From Sandaracinus amylolyticus (GTDB lineage Bacteria > Myxococcota_A > Polyangia > Polyangiales > Sandaracinaceae): 64,000 nucleotides of DNA. Where the stretch lies: the NCBI RefSeq assembly GCF_021631985.1, contig NZ_CP070225.1, positions 8,742,001 through 8,806,000 of the forward strand, read 5' to 3'. The translations under genes and the position numbers were made by a program. Shown piece by piece: positions 1,257-9,663 of this stretch (positions are counted from its first letter, which is position 1; the number at the start of each line of letters is the position of its first letter). The notes beneath the pieces were generated by a model. It worked only from the letters and a program-made list of their open reading frames with translations, was not told the origin of the DNA and searched no databases.

Positions 1257-1406
1257 TCGCGGGAGGCGCGCGCGCGACTGCCGAGGCAGGTCGTCACGCG
1301 GGCACGTCGGCCGAGCACGAGACGCGGGGCGGCACGACGAATGCGTTCGGTCCCGGCCCGTGGGACAGCCGATGTCGGAGGAATCCGCGGAGCGCTGGAT
1401 CGAGTG

Positions 1407-4262
1407 ATGGCCTTGGATCCGCGCAGCCTCAGGAGCCAGCAGCTCCGCAGGGTCAACTTCCAGGGCGACTCGCTCCGCATGGGGATGAACTGGACCGAGG
1501 AGGATCTCGCCAAGCCGCAGATCCTCGTCGACAGCGCCTACGGCATGGGCCACCCCGGGACGTTCCACTTCCGGCCGCTCATCGAGGAGATCTCGAACGG
1601 CGTCTTCGAGGCCGGCGGGAAGCCCGGCGTCTTCACCGTCAGCGACATCTGCGACGGAGTCGTGCAGGCGACGAGCGGGATGAGCTACTCGCTCGTGTCG
1701 CGCGACGTGATGGCCGCGATGGTCGAGATCCACGCGCTCGGGCACCCGCACGACGGCATGGTGCTGCTCTCGGGGAACGACAAATCGGTACCGGCTCACC
1801 TCATCGCGATCGCCCGCTGCAATCTCCCCGCGATCCACGTGCCCGGAGGGACGCAGCTCAACGCGCCCGACTACTTCACGTCGAACAAGCTCTGGCCCCT
1901 CGGCATGCACGTCCAGCGCGGCGACAGCGCTCACGAGGAGCTCGTCGAGCGGCAGAAGAACGCGTGCCCGACGTGCGGCGCGTGCCAGTTCATGGGCTCG
2001 GCGTCGACGGGACAGGTGCTCGCCGAGGCGCTCGGCCTCGCGCTCCCGGGCTCCGCGTTGATCCCGGTCCCGCTGACGATGCATCTGCGCTACGCGCGCG
2101 CCGCCGGGAAGCAGATCCTGCAGCTCGTCGCGAACGATCTCCGCCCGCGCGAGATCCTCACGCGGAAGGCGTTCGAGAACGCCGTCGCGATCCACGCCGC
2201 GGTCGGCGGCTCGACGAACGCGCTCCTCCACGTGCCCGCGGCCGCGCGCGAGCTCGGGATCCATCTCGACGTCGACGACTTCGATCGGATCCACCGGCGC
2301 GTGCCCGTCATCGCGAACGTGAAGACGACCGGGAAATATCCGGTCGAGTACTTCTATTACGCGGGCGGCGTCCCGAGGGTGATGCTGGAGATCCGCGACC
2401 TCCTCCACCTCGACTGCATGACGGTGACCGGCAAGACGCTCGGCGAGAACCTCGACGAGCTCGAGCGCTCGTTCTTCTTCGAGGAGCGCCTCGGCTACCT
2501 GCGCAACTACCGCATCCCGCCGACGGAGATCATCCGACCGCGCGCGGAGCCGTTCTGCGTCGAGGGTGGGATCGCGATCCTGCGCGGGAACATCGCGCCG
2601 GAGGGCGCCATGATCAAAGCGTTCTCCGTCCCTCCAGAGATGCGCGTCCACATCGGTCCCGCTCGCGTCTTCGATCGCGAGACCGCGTGCCTCGATGCGC
2701 TGAAGCGACGCGAGATCGAACCGGGCGACGTGATGGTCATCCGGTACGAGGGGCCGCGCGCCAACGGCATGCCCGAGATGTACTTCGCCTCGGCCGTCCT
2801 CGACGCGGATCCCGTGCTCGGCCCGACGACCGCGCTCGTGACCGACGGGCGCTACTCGGGCGCGATGAAGGGCCCGTGCATCGGTCACGTCTCGCCCGAG
2901 GCCGCCGACGGAGGACCGATCGCGCTGGTCGAGGAAGGCGATCTCGTCGCGATCGACATCCCGCGGCGCGAGCTCGCGCTCGTCGGCCTCCACGGACGCC
3001 GCGCGACCGAGGGGGAGGTCGCGCGCGCATTGGCGGAGCGGCGCGCTCGGTGGAGGCCTCCGCCGCCGCGCCACGACACCGGCATCCTGTCGCTCTTCGC
3101 GCGCGTCGCGAGCTCGGCGTCGACCGGCGCGTCGCTGACGCTGACGCCGGCCGACCACGACGGCCCGCCGGCGGCGATCGGCCCCGTCGACGACGGCGTG
3201 TCTCCCGCTGGCGCGCAGGCGGCTCCCCTCGACCCGACACGCTGGGACTGGCGCGCTCCGGCGCGGGTGAAGGTGGTCGTCCTCGACTACGACTTCGGCG
3301 ACATCGAGGTCGAGCGATCGATCATCGAGGGCGCAGGCTTCGAGCTCGTCGGCGCCCAGTGCAAGAGCGAGGACGAGGTCATCGACGTCGCTCGCGACGC
3401 CTACGGCGTGCTCTGCCAGTACGCGCACGTCGGCGCGCGCGCGATCGATGCCCTCACGCACTGCCGCGTCATCGCGCGCTACGGCACCGGAGTCGACATC
3501 GTCGACGTCGACGCCGCGACCGAGCACGGGATCCAGGTGACCAACGCGCCGAACGAGTGGTGCTCCGACGAGGTGGCCGACCACGCCGTCTCGCTCTGGT
3601 TGGCGGCCGCTCGGAAGATCCCGACGTACGACGCGGCCACGCGACGTGGCGAGTGGAAGTGGCAGACCGGCAAGCCGATCGGACGGCTGCGCGGGCGCGT
3701 CTTCGGACTCCTCTCGTTCGGCGCGATCGCGCGCTCGATCGCCGATCGCGCGCGGCCGTTCGGGGTCGAGCTGTGGGCGCACGATCCCTTCCTCGACGGC
3801 GAGGTGATCCGCGCGCACGGAGTGAAGCCGGTCTCCTTCGCGGAGCTGGTCGCGGGCTCCGACTACCTCGTCATCCAGTCGCCGCTCACGAGCGAGACGC
3901 GCGGCCTGTTCGGCGAGGACGTCCTCCGCAGCATGAAGCGCAGCGCGATCCTCGTGAACACGGCGCGCGGGCCCATCGTGCCCGATCACGTGCTCCACCG
4001 CGCTCTCACGGAAGGATGGATCGCGGGCGCCGCGCTCGACGATCTCGAGGAGGAGCCGGCGAAGAGCCGTGACTGGCGGCCCGACAATCCGCTCCTCGCG
4101 CTCGACAACGTGATCGTGACGCCGCACGCGGCGTACTACTCCGAGGAGTCGATCCACATGGTGCGCAGCATCGCGGCGAGCGAGGTCGTGCGCGTGCTGA
4201 CGGGACATCGCCCGAGCTCCCCGGTGAACGTCGTCGAGGAGCCCGAGCGCGACAGCGCATGA
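1407..4262 (+). CDS. IlvD/Edd-family dehydratase fused to a D-2-hydroxyacid dehydrogenase
   Basis: 951-residue two-domain fusion. Residues 1 to about 575 are an IlvD/Edd dehydratase, the family that dehydrates dihydroxy acids or sugar acids; recognisable blocks include GNDKSVPAHL, CGACQFMGSASTGQ and TDGRYSGAMKGP. After a roughly 45-residue Pro/Ala linker, residues 622-951 are a D-isomer 2-hydroxyacid dehydrogenase with Arg (NTARGP), Glu (EEEP) and His (TPHAA) of the catalytic triad. Family members normally ligate a Fe-S cluster with three cysteines; here the first two positions read GHPG instead of a PC motif and NDK instead of CDK, and only the CGAC cysteine remains. The Rossmann fingerprint is SFGAIA rather than GxGxxG. 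It follows the glucose dehydrogenase by 150 bases. The start could also be 1341. The substrate is unknown. Confidence 0.8.
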   Translation: MALDPRSLRSQQLRRVNFQGDSLRMGMNWTEEDLAKPQILVDSAYGMGHPGTFHFRPLIEEISNGVFEAGGKPGVFTVSDICDGVVQATSGMSYSLVSRDVMAAMVEIHALGHPHDGMVLLSGNDKSVPAHLIAIARCNLPAIHVPGGTQLNAPDYFTSNKLWPLGMHVQRGDSAHEELVERQKNACPTCGACQFMGSASTGQVLAEALGLALPGSALIPVPLTMHLRYARAAGKQILQLVANDLRPREILTRKAFENAVAIHAAVGGSTNALLHVPAAARELGIHLDVDDFDRIHRRVPVIANVKTTGKYPVEYFYYAGGVPRVMLEIRDLLHLDCMTVTGKTLGENLDELERSFFFEERLGYLRNYRIPPTEIIRPRAEPFCVEGGIAILRGNIAPEGAMIKAFSVPPEMRVHIGPARVFDRETACLDALKRREIEPGDVMVIRYEGPRANGMPEMYFASAVLDADPVLGPTTALVTDGRYSGAMKGPCIGHVSPEAADGGPIALVEEGDLVAIDIPRRELALVGLHGRRATEGEVARALAERRARWRPPPPRHDTGILSLFARVASSASTGASLTLTPADHDGPPAAIGPVDDGVSPAGAQAAPLDPTRWDWRAPARVKVVVLDYDFGDIEVERSIIEGAGFELVGAQCKSEDEVIDVARDAYGVLCQYAHVGARAIDALTHCRVIARYGTGVDIVDVDAATEHGIQVTNAPNEWCSDEVADHAVSLWLAAARKIPTYDAATRRGEWKWQTGKPIGRLRGRVFGLLSFGAIARSIADRARPFGVELWAHDPFLDGEVIRAHGVKPVSFAELVAGSDYLVIQSPLTSETRGLFGEDVLRSMKRSAILVNTARGPIVPDHVLHRALTEGWIAGAALDDLEEEPAKSRDWRPDNPLLALDNVIVTPHAAYYSEESIHMVRSIAASEVVRVLTGHRPSSPVNVVEEPERDSA

Positions 4263-4266
4263 GCGA

Positions 4267-5520
4267 TCACGCGCTCAGCTGCTCGGCGAACGCCTGACGA
4301 TCGAGCTCGGTCCACGAGCGCGTGATGCGCCCGCCGCGCAGCTCGAAGAAGCTCATCCCGCGGTGCGTGATCGTTCGTCCGGTCGGCGCGAACGTGCGGA
4401 ACGTCCCGCGGTGGGTGCCCGACCACGACCACCGCACCGCGACGCGATCGCCCTGCGCGATCACCTCGTCGAGCACGTACTGGATGTCGGGGAACCCGCC
4501 GCGCAGCGTGTCCACCAGCGCGCCGAACGACGCCGGCCCGCGCCCGCCCTGCGGGCCCTCGTAGTCGGCGGCGAAGAGCTCGGGGAGCAGCTCGGTGCGC
4601 CGCTGGTTCACGACCTCGTCGAACACCCGCCGCACCACGCTGCTCGCATCGCTCGGCGCGAGTCCACGGCGCAGCACCTCTTCGAGCGTCACGCGCCCGC
4701 GCACCGTGCGCCCCGCGCCCTCGTAGGCGAGCAGCCCGCGCGCGGCGCCTTCGCTCAGCTCGCGGAACAGCGACGCGACGTTCTCCGACATCCCGGTGCT
4801 CGTCAGCGCGGGCACGATCGCGTCGATCGGCACCACCCGCGCCGTCACCTCGCGACCCAGGATCTCCGACGCGATCGCCGCGGCCTCGACGAAGCTGCGA
4901 TCCCGCGGACCGCGCACCTCGACGATCTCGGTCGCGCTCGGGGGCGCGAGCAGCGCGTCCGCCGCGACGTCGCCGAGATCGTGCGCCGCGACCATCGGCA
5001 TCGCGAAGCTCTCGCCGCCGCCGAGCACCGGCAGCACTCCGTCGCTGCGCATCGGATGGGCGCTCGCGAGCAGGTTCTCCATGAAGAACGGCGCGCGCAC
5101 GAACGTGAAGCGCGTCCCGCCGACCGCGCGCAGCGCGACCTCGGCCTGATGGCTGAGCCGCGTGGGCCCGGTGCCCGCCTCGTGCTGCGCGCCCACCGAC
5201 GAGAGGAACACCGCGTGCGGCACCTTCGCGCGCCGCAGCCCCTCGACGTAGCCCGCGACGATCGAGCGGCTCTTCGCGAGCAGATCGCGCGCCTGCAGAT
5301 CGGGCGGCACGATCAGGTACGCGCCCTCCGCGCCCTCGAGCGCGCGCGCGACGAGCGCCGCGTCGGTGACGTCGCCCACCACGAGCTCGGCGCCCTTCGC
5401 CGCGAGCGCCGCGCCCTTGTCGCGATCGCGCACCACCGCGCGCACCTTCGCGCCCGCCGCGAGCAGGCGCTCCACGACGACCGATCCCGTGTTCCCCGTG
5501 GCTCCGAAGACAGTGAGCAT
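4267..5520 (-). CDS. NmrA-type NAD(P)-binding protein with C-terminal SnoaL-like domain
   Basis: 417 residues. The amino-terminal ~285 residues are an atypical short-chain dehydrogenase/NmrA-like fold beginning with FGATGNTGS (residues 5-13), as in NAD(P)H-sensing or quinone-reductase-like proteins. The last ~130 residues form a SnoaL/nuclear-transport-factor-2-like domain of the ester-cyclase type, with GDRVAVRWSWSGTHRG and PTGRTITHRG blocks. The start has GGAGAG about 8 bases upstream. It is divergent from the LysR regulator at 5597 and is a likely target of it. NmrA-SnoaL fusion is uncommon and the reaction is not known. Confidence 0.8.
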   Translation of the reverse strand: MLTVFGATGNTGSVVVERLLAAGAKVRAVVRDRDKGAALAAKGAELVVGDVTDAALVARALEGAEGAYLIVPPDLQARDLLAKSRSIVAGYVEGLRRAKVPHAVFLSSVGAQHEAGTGPTRLSHQAEVALRAVGGTRFTFVRAPFFMENLLASAHPMRSDGVLPVLGGGESFAMPMVAAHDLGDVAADALLAPPSATEIVEVRGPRDRSFVEAAAIASEILGREVTARVVPIDAIVPALTSTGMSENVASLFRELSEGAARGLLAYEGAGRTVRGRVTLEEVLRRGLAPSDASSVVRRVFDEVVNQRRTELLPELFAADYEGPQGGRGPASFGALVDTLRGGFPDIQYVLDEVIAQGDRVAVRWSWSGTHRGTFRTFAPTGRTITHRGMSFFELRGGRITRSWTELDRQAFAEQLSA

Positions 5521-5596: not shown

Positions 5597-6496
5597 ATGC
5601 ACGAAGTGGATGACGCTCCGAGCCTCGATCTGTTGCGCTGCTTCGTCACCCTGCACCGCGAGCGGCACCTCTCGCGCGCCGCGATCCGCCTCGGCCTGAG
5701 CCAGCCCGCGATGAGCCGCGCGCTCACCCGGATGCGCGAGTCGTTCGGCGATCCGCTCTTCGTGCGCACCCCGCGCGGGATGGTCCCGACCGCGCGCGCC
5801 GACGAGCTCGCGCCGCGGGTGGTCGCGGTGCTCGAGGCCGCCGCCGCGCTGGTGCGCCCGACCGAGCTCGATCCGGCGCAGCTCACGCGCACGTTCACCG
5901 TCGCGACCTCGGGCTTCGTCGACGCGCTGCTCCTGCCTCGGCTCACCCCGCTCCTGCTGCGCGAGGCGCCGGGCGTGGCGATCACCACCCGGCCGGTCGC
6001 CGACGATCTCGCGGAGTCGCTCGCGAGCGGGCGCGTCGATCTGATGATCGGCGTCGGCGACGGCGTGCCGCGCGACGCCCATCGCACCCGGCTCTACGAG
6101 GAGAGCTGGGTCTGCGCGGTGCGGCAGGATCATCCCGACGTGGGCAAGCGCCTGACCCTCGAGCGCTTCGTGAAGCTCCCGCACCTCCTGGTCGCGCCGG
6201 GAGGGAACCCCGGCAGCCACGTCGATCGTGCGCTCGCTGCGCGCGGGCTCGCGCGGCGCGTCGTGGTGCGCATCCACGCGTTCGCGCCGGCGCCCGCGAT
6301 CGTCGCCAGCTCGGACCTCGTGGTCACTGCGCCGCGCCGGGTGATCGAGCCGCTCGCCCGCCCGTTCGGGCTGCGCCTCTTCCCGACGCCGATCGAGATT
6401 CCGAGCTCGACCATCGTCGCAGCGTGGCACCCGCGGGCCCAGGACGATCCCGCCCACGCCTGGTTCCGCACCGCGCTGGTCACCGCGGTGCGGTGA
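5597..6496 (+). CDS. LysR-family transcriptional regulator
   Basis: 299-residue LysR regulator. An amino-terminal winged helix (about residues 8-66, with LSRAAIRLGLSQPAMSRALT) is followed by a periplasmic-binding-protein-like effector domain. ATGs at 5588 and 5597 are both possible; GAGG at 5582-5585 is too close to 5588, so I chose 5597. The gene is divergent from the NmrA-SnoaL gene, the usual arrangement for a LysR regulator and its target. The inducer is unknown. Confidence 0.85.
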   Translation: MHEVDDAPSLDLLRCFVTLHRERHLSRAAIRLGLSQPAMSRALTRMRESFGDPLFVRTPRGMVPTARADELAPRVVAVLEAAAALVRPTELDPAQLTRTFTVATSGFVDALLLPRLTPLLLREAPGVAITTRPVADDLAESLASGRVDLMIGVGDGVPRDAHRTRLYEESWVCAVRQDHPDVGKRLTLERFVKLPHLLVAPGGNPGSHVDRALAARGLARRVVVRIHAFAPAPAIVASSDLVVTAPRRVIEPLARPFGLRLFPTPIEIPSSTIVAAWHPRAQDDPAHAWFRTALVTAVR

Positions 6497-6497
6497 G

Positions 6498-6525
6498 CCG
6501 TTCCGCATGTTCCATCATGGAACGG
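6498..6525. promoter_or_regulatory. Nested palindrome upstream of the RIC gene, candidate operator
   Basis: GTTCCATCATGGAAC at 6509-6523 is a perfect 7-bp dyad around one central base. An outer CCGTTCC (6498-6504) is also complementary to GGAACGG (6519-6525). It lies just after the LysR stop codon and about 45 bases upstream of a sigma-54-like promoter, the kind of position used by an enhancer-binding activator. There is no T-tract, so it is not a good terminator. The binding protein is unknown. Confidence 0.5.
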
Positions 6526-6565
6526 GACGCTCGGCCGATCTCCGCGTTTTGCCCACGAATTGCGC

Positions 6566-6581
6566 TGGCACCTCCGCTGCA
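6566..6581 (+). promoter_or_regulatory. Candidate sigma-54 (-24/-12) promoter
   Basis: TGGCACCTCCGCTGCA matches the sigma-54 consensus TGGCACG-N4-TTGCW with the invariant GG and GC at the right spacing. It ends 12 bases before the GGAGG ribosome site of the RIC gene, so the predicted leader would be very short. Consistent with an RpoN-dependent, signal-activated operon, but unproven. Confidence 0.5.
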
Positions 6582-6605
6582 CTGATGGAGCGCGGAGGAT
6601 CCGAA

Positions 6606-7277
6606 ATGAGCATCGACGTCTCCCAGCCCGTGGCCGATCTCGTGACCGCGCACCCCGAGCTCGCGGCGGTGCTCCAGCGCCACCGCATCGACTTCTGCTG
6701 CCGCGGCACCCGTCCGCTGCGCGACTGGTGCGCCGATCGCGGGCTCGACACGACCTCGGTCGCGCGCGAGCTCGAGGCGGCGATCGCGTCGCGCGTCCCG
6801 AGCGACGACGATCCGCGCGCGCTCTCGACCCCGGCGCTCGCCCAGCACATCGTCGCGCGCCATCACGGGTACCTGCGCGAGGCGCTGCCCTTCCTCGTGC
6901 CGCTCGCCGCGAAGGTCGCGCGGGTCCACGGCGATCGTGATCTCCGCCTCGTCGAGCTGCGCACGATCGTCGAAGAGCTCGACGCGTCGCTGCGCCCTCA
7001 CCTCGAGCGCGAGGAGCTCGATCTCTTCGCGCCGATTGCGCGCGGCGAGCGCGTCCCCCAGCGCGAGCTGGACGCGATGCGCGAGGAGCACCTCGGCGTG
7101 GGCGCGCTGCTCGAGCGCATGCGCGAAGCGGCCCGCGACTACGTCGTGCCCGAGGGCGCGTGCCGCAGCTGGACCACGCTGCTCCGCGAGCTCGAGACGC
7201 TCGAGCGCGACGTGCTGGTGCACGTCCACCTCGAGAACCACGTGCTCGCGCCGCGGCTCGAGAGAGAGGCGTCGTGA
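6606..7277 (+). CDS. ytfE: RIC-type iron-sulfur/di-iron centre repair protein (ScdA/YtfE-like)
   Basis: 223 residues, the usual length of the RIC (repair of iron centres) family. The amino-terminal DUF542 domain carries the FCCRG motif (Cys31-Cys32), followed by a hemerythrin-like four-helix domain with repeated HxxxE-type ligands (HHGYLRE, HLEREE, EEHLG, HVHLENH). Family members donate iron or repair clusters after nitric oxide or peroxide damage. GGAGG sits 7 bases before the ATG. It heads an apparent operon: the next gene overlaps by 4 bases, and an alternative oxidase follows. Confidence 0.88.
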   Translation: MSIDVSQPVADLVTAHPELAAVLQRHRIDFCCRGTRPLRDWCADRGLDTTSVARELEAAIASRVPSDDDPRALSTPALAQHIVARHHGYLREALPFLVPLAAKVARVHGDRDLRLVELRTIVEELDASLRPHLEREELDLFAPIARGERVPQRELDAMREEHLGVGALLERMREAARDYVVPEGACRSWTTLLRELETLERDVLVHVHLENHVLAPRLEREAS

Positions 7278-7777
7278 CCACCACGCTGCGCGCGCTGATC
7301 GAGGAGGAGCACCGCGAGATGGACGTGCTGCTCGCGCGCTCCGACGCGGGCGGCGTGCTCGATCTCGAGGCGTTCGAGGAGCTCCGCGCGCGGCTGCTGC
7401 GGCACATCGCGATCGAGGAGAAGCTGATCCTCGCCCAGGTGCGCGCGGTGCGCGGCGGTGAGCCCATCGAGGGCGCGCGGCGGGTGCGGGTCGAGCACGG
7501 CGCGATCGCGTCGCTGCTCGTCGGCACGCCCGATGTCGCGCTGGTGGACGAGCTCCGCACGCTGCTCGCCGCGCACGAGGCGTTCGAGGAGCAGGGCCTC
7601 TACGCCGCGTGCGAGGAGATCCTCGGCCCGGAGCGCGCGCTCGACATCGCGCATCGCGCGCGCACCTACCCGGTGATCCCGGTCGCGAAGCACTTCGACG
7701 GGCCGCTGGTGCCGCGCACCGCGGCCGACGCGCTGCGCGGCGCGGCCCGGATGAAGTTCGCCGCGGGCGGACGATGA
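7274..7777 (+). CDS. Hemerythrin-domain protein
   Basis: 168-residue protein starting with GTG that overlaps the RIC stop by 4 bases (GTGA), implying translational coupling. Histidine and glutamate pairs spaced as in hemerythrin-like helical bundles are visible: EEEHREMD near residue 12, LRHIAIEEK near 45, VEHGAIA and AAHEAFEEQ. A di-iron or oxygen/NO-binding role is likely from family and context; the ligands have not been aligned. A C-terminal extension of about 40 residues (PVAKHFDGP and after) is outside the bundle. Confidence 0.75.
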   Translation: MTTTLRALIEEEHREMDVLLARSDAGGVLDLEAFEELRARLLRHIAIEEKLILAQVRAVRGGEPIEGARRVRVEHGAIASLLVGTPDVALVDELRTLLAAHEAFEEQGLYAACEEILGPERALDIAHRARTYPVIPVAKHFDGPLVPRTAADALRGAARMKFAAGGR

Positions 7778-7840
7778 CCTCAGATCCCGGGAGACGACGA
7801 CCAGCGCGACCTGCCAGTCGCGACGAGAGGAGAGATCGTC

Positions 7841-8524
7841 ATGGACGACACGCTCGAACGGCGCGCCGAGGCGCGCCGCGACGAAGAGGTGCGCACGCTG
7901 AGTGCCCCTCGCATCCGCCACGGCCTCGCGGCCCGCGCGCTCTTCGCGGTGATGGACCTCGTGTACGGCCGCGCCGCGAGCCTCGTGAAGTTCCGCGTGC
8001 TCGAGGTGATCGCCCGCGTGCCCTACCAGGCCTGGGAGAACGTCGGGTACGTCGCGATCACCCACACGTATCGCGACCCCGATGCGCCCTCGCGCATCTT
8101 CGGTGCGGTGAGCGAGAGCCGCGCCCAGCAGGACAACGAGCAGTGGCACCTGCTGCTGCTCGAAGAGCTCTGCGCGCGACGCGGAGCGCGCGAGACGTGG
8201 CTGCTCCACCGCGCGATCCCGCAGCTGCTCGCGATGTTCTACTACCACCTGAGCTGGCTGCTCTACGTGCTGCACCCCGCCTGGAGCTACGCGCTCAACC
8301 GCGACTTCGAGGACCACGCCGAGCGCGAGTACATGGCGTTCGTCGCCGCCCACCCCGAGCTCGAGCACGAGCCCTTCGCGTCGCGCTACGAGGCCGAGTA
8401 CGGGCGCTACCTGAGCGTCGCCGACCTGCTGCGCCAGATCGCGCTCGACGAGCGCGAGCACAAGCTCGAGAGCGAGGCCCGCATCCCGTCGCCGCGCTTC
8501 GGGCTCGAGGTGGCTCAGCGATAG
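7841..8524 (+). CDS. aox: Alternative oxidase (di-iron ubiquinol oxidase)
   Basis: 227 residues, like compact bacterial alternative oxidases. All expected carboxylate/histidine di-iron ligands can be traced: Glu55 (VLEVIARVP), Glu100 and His103 (NEQWHL), Glu157 (FEDHAEREY), and Glu204 with His207 (DEREH). A hydrophobic hairpin around 122-152 would bind the membrane. The enzyme oxidises ubiquinol with oxygen without pumping protons and is typically resistant to cyanide and nitric oxide. A strong GAGGAGAG lies upstream of the ATG. Placement after the RIC and hemerythrin genes suggests a nitric-oxide tolerant respiration module. Confidence 0.85.
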   Translation: MDDTLERRAEARRDEEVRTLSAPRIRHGLAARALFAVMDLVYGRAASLVKFRVLEVIARVPYQAWENVGYVAITHTYRDPDAPSRIFGAVSESRAQQDNEQWHLLLLEELCARRGARETWLLHRAIPQLLAMFYYHLSWLLYVLHPAWSYALNRDFEDHAEREYMAFVAAHPELEHEPFASRYEAEYGRYLSVADLLRQIALDEREHKLESEARIPSPRFGLEVAQR

Positions 8525-9663
8525 GGATCGAAGCGCGCCGACGGCTCGAGCGACGCGTTCATCCGCCGGATCTCTTCGGGTGAGTACGCATCCGCGTGAC
8601 CGACCGGCAGGCTCTCGCGGATGAACGCCTCGATGACGCCTCGCGCACCGCCGTCGCCTCCGCCCTCGTCGACGTCGCGCCAGAGCTCGAACAGCTGACG
8701 GCGACGCTGGGCGGCGGGGCTCTCCTCCGCCCAGAGGCGCGCGAGGCGACCGCGGAGCCGTCGCAGGGCCGCGGCCATCTCGCGCTCGCGCGCCTGCCGC
8801 TCGAGGCGCTCGATGAGCTCGGCGTTGTCGTCCTCGAACCGCTGCCGCTCGGCGGCGTAGGGGTCGCCGCCCTGCGCCCGCGTGATCGCGTCGTTCAGGT
8901 CGAACCTTCCCTGCGGCGCGACTCCATCGGTCTGGATCGGCGGGCGATCTTCGTAGCGCACCTGCCCGTCCGCGGTGATCACGGCGGTGAACGCGTGGTG
9001 CTCGCGCACGTAGGTGCCGTCGGGCCGAGGCCGCGCGGTGAGGCGCTCGCGCTGGGTGAACGACTTCGTCATCGCCTCCGCCCGGAGCGACCCGCTCAGC
9101 TCTTGCTCGACCTCGCGCTCGCTGCGCGGCCGGAGATCGTCTCCGGCCCTCGATGCGCTCGCTGGGGCCGAGCGCATCGAGGGCGCGCCCTCGACGACGA
9201 ACGCGCTCCGCGCGACGGCCGCGGGATCGAAGATCCGTCGCTCGCGCTCGCGACGCTCGGCGTCGGTCTCGACCGGCGGTCGGAGCGGCGCGTCGAGCGG
9301 TGTCGAGGGCGCTTCGGGCGTCTCGACGACGACGACCGAGGGCCCTGGGTCGAACGGAACGTCTTCGCGGGCGCGCGCAGCACGCCGCGGAGGCGCGCTC
9401 GTCTCCTCGTGCGCGGTGTCGGCGGTTTCCTCGGCACGCGGCACCTCACGCGCGATCGAGGGGCGCGCTTCCGCGATCTCGAACGTGACCTCGTGGGGCG
9501 CTCGCGGCGGAGGCTGGATCGCCGATGCGCGCGGCGCGAAGGCGAGGGCGAGCACGACGCATCCGTGGATCGCCGCCGATCCGAGGAGCGATGTCGCGAG
9601 CCGCCCGCGCGCTGGATGCATCGGTGGCGATGGTGGGGTCACGCGCGAGACGCGCGCAACCAC
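8515..9663 (-). CDS. TonB-like single-pass periplasmic protein
   Basis: 382 residues from a GTG start (an ATG at 9621 is possible). An amino-terminal membrane anchor (about residues 20-45) is followed by a Pro/Glu/Arg-rich spacer and then a charged helical region. The short VITADGQVRYEDRPP segment resembles TonB-like proteins of Polyangia, but I do not see a classical TonB C-terminal domain. The gene converges with the alternative oxidase and overlaps its last 10 bases. Function not assigned. Confidence 0.55.
   Translation of the reverse strand: MVARVSRVTPPSPPMHPARGRLATSLLGSAAIHGCVVLALAFAPRASAIQPPPRAPHEVTFEIAEARPSIAREVPRAEETADTAHEETSAPPRRAARAREDVPFDPGPSVVVVETPEAPSTPLDAPLRPPVETDAERRERERRIFDPAAVARSAFVVEGAPSMRSAPASASRAGDDLRPRSEREVEQELSGSLRAEAMTKSFTQRERLTARPRPDGTYVREHHAFTAVITADGQVRYEDRPPIQTDGVAPQGRFDLNDAITRAQGGDPYAAERQRFEDDNAELIERLERQAREREMAAALRRLRGRLARLWAEESPAAQRRRQLFELWRDVDEGGGDGGARGVIEAFIRESLPVGHADAYSPEEIRRMNASLEPSARFDPYR

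Follow-up and report, generated by a model that had tools for sequence, protein, structure and literature searches.

A candidate sigma-54-controlled ric-hhe-aox operon in Sandaracinus amylolyticus and its putative NorR-like activator

The stretch of DNA considered here, referred to as the window, comprises 64,000 nucleotides of the genome of Sandaracinus amylolyticus (contig NZ_CP070225.1 of assembly GCF_021631985.1, positions 8,742,001 to 8,806,000). Within it, three genes on the same strand encode, in order, a RIC/ScdA/YtfE-type di-iron iron-centre repair protein (RIC, 6606-7277), a hemerythrin-domain protein (HHE, 7274-7777) and an alternative oxidase (AOX, 7841-8524). These genes probably constitute an operon, ric-hhe-aox, with one predicted sigma-54 promoter activated by an enhancer-binding protein (EBP), for which nitric oxide (NO) or nitrosative damage would be the most likely signal. 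The activator that would switch on the operon is most likely NorR-like, yet separate from NorR.

The putative control region lies between the stop codon of an upstream LysR gene (6496) and RIC. Its first element, the operator-like sequence GTTCCGCATGTTCCATCATGGAAC (6500-6523, plus strand), consists of a half-site GTTCC, 4 bases and the perfect palindrome GTTCCATCATGGAAC (6509-6523), and is a probable sigma-54 activator site. It is followed on the same strand by a sigma-54 -24/-12 promoter-like element, TGGCAC-CTCCG-CTGCA (TGGCACCTCCGCTGCA, 6566-6581), with the GG-N10-GC spacing and one mismatch to TGGCAC-N5-TTGCW (shuffle frequency 0.003), and by a probable RIC ribosome-binding site GGAGGA, read directly at 6594-6599 (plus strand). 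The ATG at 6507, which begins a longer open reading frame (ORF) in the ORF list, was rejected as the RIC start because the extension would contain the sigma-54 element. Exact copies of the palindrome TTCCATNATGGAA number two in the 10.96 Mb host genome, against about 0.004 expected from the window base composition; with up to two mismatches there are 31 sites, compared with 2 for the reversed control. The second exact copy lies across the 5′ end of an EBP gene (C1:8725309-8726316, minus strand), 22 kb from RIC, and the sister genome of the same genus (G155) retains both copies, 16 kb apart.

The protein encoded by this EBP gene contains a sigma-54 activator domain (Sigma54_activat, 235.9 bits), an AAA lid and a Fis-type helix-turn-helix (HTH_8, 49.9 bits), and a GAFTGA loop can be read in its sequence. 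Ahead of the AAA domain is a stretch of about 35 residues, in which a CxxC motif is present in 22 of the 22 members whose N-terminus is known; in the EBP tree, L227, with the motif CEICQL, is labelled 'other' since the pattern required CxxCG. A Pfam scan (E 0.01) found no GAF domain in the EBP, and the control L104 shows one. Against the NorR model NF003451 the EBP scores 307.4 bits, below the cut-off of 476, which none of the 78 NorR-model matches in the host genome attains. The conserved EBP site GTTCCATNATGGAAC corresponds to GT-N11-AC, not to the GT-N7-AC given as the NorR consensus in the available part of PMC1274295. Judged from its sequence, the EBP is not NorR, given its score, the lack of GAF, the different site and an N-terminal CxxC instead.

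The association of this site with the EBP extends to other genomes. A survey of 240 genomes of the class gave at least 80 RIC matches in 53 genomes, counts that are lower bounds since only 12 first-look candidates were scored in most genomes. Upstream regions were compared for 40 RIC genes, namely that of the window and those of 39 fetched loci (the strongest matches together with selected weaker ones), of which 12 have an EBP divergently adjacent, 3 have it displaced and 25 have none in the locus. The adjacent EBP relatives lie within about 320 bases and are 57-67% identical to the host EBP, while the displaced ones lie 22 kb (window), 16 kb (G155) and about 2.5 kb (G221) away; another sigma-54 activator (40-46% identity) is carried by 6 of the 25 loci without EBP. 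When up to 3 mismatches in 14 positions were allowed, the operator was found upstream of RIC in 11/12 EBP-adjacent, 3/3 EBP-displaced and 2/25 other loci, and in the twelfth EBP-adjacent locus (L078) it stands at the EBP end of a long spacer. A sigma-54 element deviating from TGGCAC-N5-TTGCW at no more than 2 positions precedes RIC in all 12 EBP-adjacent and all 3 displaced loci. The operator also occurs at the start of 19 of the 22 EBP genes (shuffle frequency 0 to 0.007). The only possible start of the L084 EBP is the ATG of the half-site ATGGAAC, so that the operator covers the start codon, which suggests negative autoregulation of the EBP. As an exact 15-mer, GTTCCATNATGGAAC has 8 sites in 6 of the 240 genomes (the backwards pattern occurs in 1 genome), and 6 of the 8 stand before RIC and/or at an EBP start. 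The remaining two exact copies, in G071 (L019) and G172 (L021), look like chance occurrences, no RIC, HHE, AOX or EBP being present in the fetched 3 kb, and were discarded.

A different regulator could in principle bind the palindrome, for example the upstream LysR, whose gene ends beside the site, the EBP gene then being merely a co-target. EBP binding to the palindrome is itself a prediction, but the site tracks the EBP across families, as seen at the 19 EBP starts and in the low number of RIC upstream regions without EBP that carry it (2/25), and we regard this explanation as very improbable. On arrangement only, the LysR gene (5597-6496, plus strand) was judged to lie outside the unit and set aside as its regulator, being divergent from the gene at 4267-5520.

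The connection to NO comes from the genes that accompany the EBP clade. A profile of the EBP N-terminal 51 residues, searched against 377 genomes of the phylum, gave 22 matches in 21 genomes, of which 15 cover the CxxC and the other 7 begin at position 19 or later. Nine of the 15 CxxC matches adjoin RIC, and two are those of the genus pair, 16-22 kb from RIC. The match in G048 is divergent from norC-norB-norQ, where norB and norC match the solved Pseudomonas aeruginosa cNOR (E 4.6e-113 and 1.2e-28, respectively) and the norC upstream region contains an operator (3 mismatches, shuffle frequency 0.006) together with a sigma-54 element (1 mismatch, shuffle frequency 0.003). The match in G171, a second copy, has NnrS 3 kb off; a search of the host genome for NnrS gave 0 matches but is uninformative, as control genomes likewise gave 0. 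No NO gene was recognised near the CxxC matches in G082 and G107, and G082 holds an operator-bearing RIC on a separate contig (L081). In G389, which belongs to another class, the EBP and a RIC gene truncated at the end of the contig stand tail to tail, and a nirK about 2 kb off matches copper nitrite reductase (E 2.1e-120). Since the EBP clade stands elsewhere beside RIC and norCBQ and, 2 kb off, nirK, a link of the locus to NO is supported. Also near EBP/RIC loci are a DUF2249-hemerythrin, a FeS-assembly-type protein, CopD and Rrf2, all above cut-off.

With the same regulator and operon, the signal might instead be iron release, oxidative stress or an oxygen shift, which would make the locus an iron/oxygen management unit of three di-iron proteins. 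All three products do come from di-iron families, and the EBP locus L222 has the ferritin-like EncFtn with no NO gene recognised. This reading is nevertheless unlikely in our estimate, as the EBP clade elsewhere faces norCBQ and adjoins RIC with nirK 2 kb off. As observations in their own right, the CxxC activator of L222 (G107) has an operator, with the EncFtn gene close to the EBP 3′ end, and a membrane protein recurs near RIC/EBP (L079 3000-4523, L087 1973-3718), the tested L079 part of which has no Pfam match.

Turning to the operon itself, RIC (223 residues, plus strand, ATG start) contains the FCCRG motif and two domains above their Pfam cut-offs, ScdA_N (59.5 bits, cut-off 32.5) and Hemerythrin (58.4 bits, cut-off 25.3). 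The model TIGR03652 (FeS_repair_RIC) covers it over positions 1-215 of 216 with 198.5 bits, 6.2 bits short of the cut-off of 204.7, and the solved ScdA and YtfE structures align to its residues 6-217. Two further RIC-like matches elsewhere in the host genome are weaker (35-37% identity). HHE (167 residues, plus strand, GTG start) overlaps the RIC stop by 4 bases (GTGA) and matches Pfam Hemerythrin with 31.5 bits against a cut-off of 25.3; a pattern H, HxxxE, H, HxxxE was read by eye, and a single-sequence fold model was poor (pLDDT 53) and set aside. The gap between HHE and AOX measures 63 bases. Neither a sigma-70-like promoter nor a terminator-like site was found on scanning 6400-8700. The order is kept in G155, with proteins 90-93% identical to those of the host and Ka/Ks values of 0.18 (RIC), 0.30 (HHE) and 0.14 (AOX). 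The preliminary description of this locus, which had named an FCCRG-bearing repair protein, a hemerythrin-type protein overlapping it by 4 bases and an alternative oxidase in one direction, is borne out by the coordinates and domain scores. Its proposal of one unit holds as far as the operon-like arrangement goes, and fails as a conserved three-gene module.

The third protein, AOX (227 residues, plus strand, ATG start), is assigned to a divergent bacterial lineage and is the sole match to the Pfam AOX model (PF01786) in the host genome, with a low score that is still above the cut-off (28.1 versus 22.7 bits). An NCBIfam search gave no match. The di-iron ligands E55, E100, H103, E157, E204 and H207, rightly reported as intact in the preliminary description, are invariant in 30 aligned sequences, as is Y164, seven residues past E157. 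We take these ligands and the catalytic tyrosine, seven after the helix-3 glutamate, to correspond to the positions in the Trypanosoma brucei AOX. Direct sequence comparison with solved structures yielded nothing meaningful, only chance matches, and the identity of the protein was therefore settled by fold comparison. The predicted model (pLDDT 93, pTM 0.90) gave 14 Foldseek hits with E <=0.001, all 14 being T. brucei AOX, and VIA-align superposed it on that enzyme with Z 19.6 over 199 residues (rmsd 2.6 Å), the next listed protein reaching Z 12.9. Thus the modelled window protein has the AOX fold and an intact ligand set, and quinol oxidase activity is predicted. It shares with T. brucei AOX the fold, the ligand pattern and the tyrosine, but is 15-18% identical, shorter and of a bacterial lineage. 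In other collections, 182 loci with relatives of this AOX were found; 80 of them (51-66% identity) were listed, and among these matches are Omnitrophota, Elusimicrobia, Rokubacteria and Nitrospira moscoviensis, the relatives spanning many phyla. A second AOX paralogue, without a Pfam family at E 1e-5, is open in G155 (L115, C1:8281168-8281773) and is present in the host genome as a C-terminal remnant only (L118, C1:9959591-9959782).

A number of observations weigh against the proposed control of the operon by this EBP and against a tie between the AOX and the other two genes. Sigma-54 elements also precede 11 of the 25 RIC genes without this EBP, and 3 of the 22 EBP starts (L085, L224 and L227) are without an operator. 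The host norB, which shares 76% identity with its G048 counterpart, shows neither operator (at least 5 mismatches) nor sigma-54 element (more than 2 mismatches) across the 4.3 kb fetched, and the host regulon may therefore consist of just the operon and the EBP gene. RIC is immediately followed by HHE in the window, G155, L074, L075, L081 and L227, so that it is the pair RIC-HHE that recurs, with AOX as an addition. Among the 240 genomes, this AOX occurs in 11 and RIC in 53, and the two are found together only in the host genome (G000) and G155, both of one genus, where 2.4 would be expected by chance; the AOX is thus without a general tie to RIC, and the conserved co-occurrence in the class, which the preliminary description proposed to look for, is not supported. 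A third genome of the same genus (G216) lacks RIC, AOX and the exact palindrome. RIC was found in none of 10 wider AOX loci and in the fetched DNA of 1 of the 80 listed loci from the other collections. An EBP is close to AOX in one of these 80 (L185, the same record as L113 of G231). There a sigma-54 element (1 mismatch, shuffle frequency 0.001) stands between the EBP relative and the AOX downstream; no operator lies within 300 bases upstream of this AOX (7 mismatches), the EBP branches as a sister of the CxxC clade and not inside it, with its N-terminus off the contig, and G231 is the only one of the 10 wider AOX loci to have a sigma-54 element with fewer than 3 mismatches. Clustering of the neighbouring ORFs in the 80 AOX loci revealed no NO gene among the recurring clusters, a weak negative, since the genes were judged by eye from their first 110 residues and without family scans. 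The one locus of the 80 with RIC is L188 (Aquihabitans sp. G128, actinobacterial), where the RIC gene, 37% identical, lies about 3 kb from the AOX.

These results bear on the possibility that the AOX is a passenger, horizontally acquired behind ric-hhe and expressed by read-through, where it would serve ordinary quinol overflow or another oxidation. The chance-level co-occurrence with RIC in the class, the relatives in many phyla with RIC found once in the 80 listed loci, and the second AOX copy elsewhere in the sister genome all fit such an origin. Set against it are the arrangement in G231, where an AOX lines up behind an EBP relative and a sigma-54 element, the purifying selection on AOX (Ka/Ks 0.14) and the precedent of the NO-controlled AOX known from Vibrio fischeri and predicted in the available part of PMC1274295, and on balance we hold the passenger explanation to be rather unlikely. 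What stands of the NO survival system put forward in the preliminary description is the NO link, which comes from outside the stretch it covered, through the EBP clade beside RIC and norCBQ and, 2 kb off, nirK; the conserved module does not stand.

Our preferred reading, in which the three genes form a sigma-54-dependent, NO-related operon, may be outlined as follows. Briefly, the dedicated short EBP, encoded 22 kb away, would bind the operator of three half-sites that precedes RIC. The same operator spans the EBP start codon, and by binding there the EBP would probably limit its own synthesis. NO, or the damage it causes, would activate the EBP and ric-hhe-aox would be expressed from the sigma-54 promoter. 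As NO rises, RIC could repair or re-supply iron centres and the HHE protein could bind iron, O2 or NO, while a presumably NO-resistant AOX would sustain quinol oxidation when the haem-copper oxidases are blocked by NO.

Studies by Dunn (2010 and 2018) reportedly concern, by their titles, an NO-controlled AOX in V. fischeri. Several regulators of RIC have been described, including NsrR, DnrD, NorR and SrrAB, according to the available part of PMC9268430. The closest precedent among them is the NorR of Ralstonia eutropha, a sigma-54 activator that controls norA(ric)-norB upon NO and has three operator copies upstream of its sigma-54 promoter (PMC1274295 and PMC9268430, available parts). The window system is alike in combining a sigma-54 activator with a RIC gene and unlike in that its EBP is without GAF, scores 307 against the cut-off of 476 and has the site GTTCCATNATGGAAC, and in that the operon has AOX in place of NorB. 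NorR2 of Vibrionales, too, has a predicted site at the gene that encodes it, and for V. fischeri aox is predicted to be under NsrR control, which is likewise a case of a bacterial AOX under an NO-responsive regulator; NsrR, however, belongs to the Rrf2 family, acts as a repressor and has a different site, and no RIC-HHE-AOX operon is described there (all from the available part of PMC1274295). Canonical NorR also exists in the same class, where it is a sigma-54 activator adjoining RIC (L104) or lying some 3.4 kb from it (L082), but it differs in its GAF domain, its NorR-model scores (668 and 506 bits) and its separate tree branch. Two kinds of sigma-54 activator, GAF-type NorR and the CxxC EBP, thus appear to share a type of RIC target in one class. 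As NO-controlled RIC via sigma-54/NorR and NsrR-linked AOX are already published, the operon is of a known kind. No description of a CxxC activator of RIC, of its operator or of a RIC-HHE-AOX operon was found in the literature searched, which leaves out most subscription journals.

Aside from these genes, the long ORF following AOX (8515-9663), a putative gene, is on the opposite strand and overlaps the AOX end. Upstream, the gene divergent from LysR (4267-5520, minus strand) encodes an NmrA-like NAD-binding protein fused to a SnoaL-like domain, and in a single ORF of 973 residues (1341-4262, plus strand) an IlvD/Edd-type dehydratase is fused to a D-2-hydroxyacid dehydrogenase, the two domains scoring above the Pfam cut-offs.

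A bolder and somewhat doubtful extension is that NO-sensing sigma-54 activators include a second class, independent of NorR, which the EBP represents and which in many Myxococcota would take the place of NorR's GAF-iron sensor. The CxxC knuckles, paired between subunits, would then bind an Fe or FeS centre that NO destroys or nitrosylates, and the AOX would have been captured in one genus. If the EBP responds to NO, its sensing must differ from that of NorR, and the new mechanism would be testable with one small protein. Taken together, the GAF-less sigma-54 activator, with its operator, is well supported as a candidate for an additional regulator of RIC in Myxococcota and, if the proposed control of the operon is true, Sandaracinus would be a second lineage besides V. 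fischeri with a bacterial AOX under NO control.

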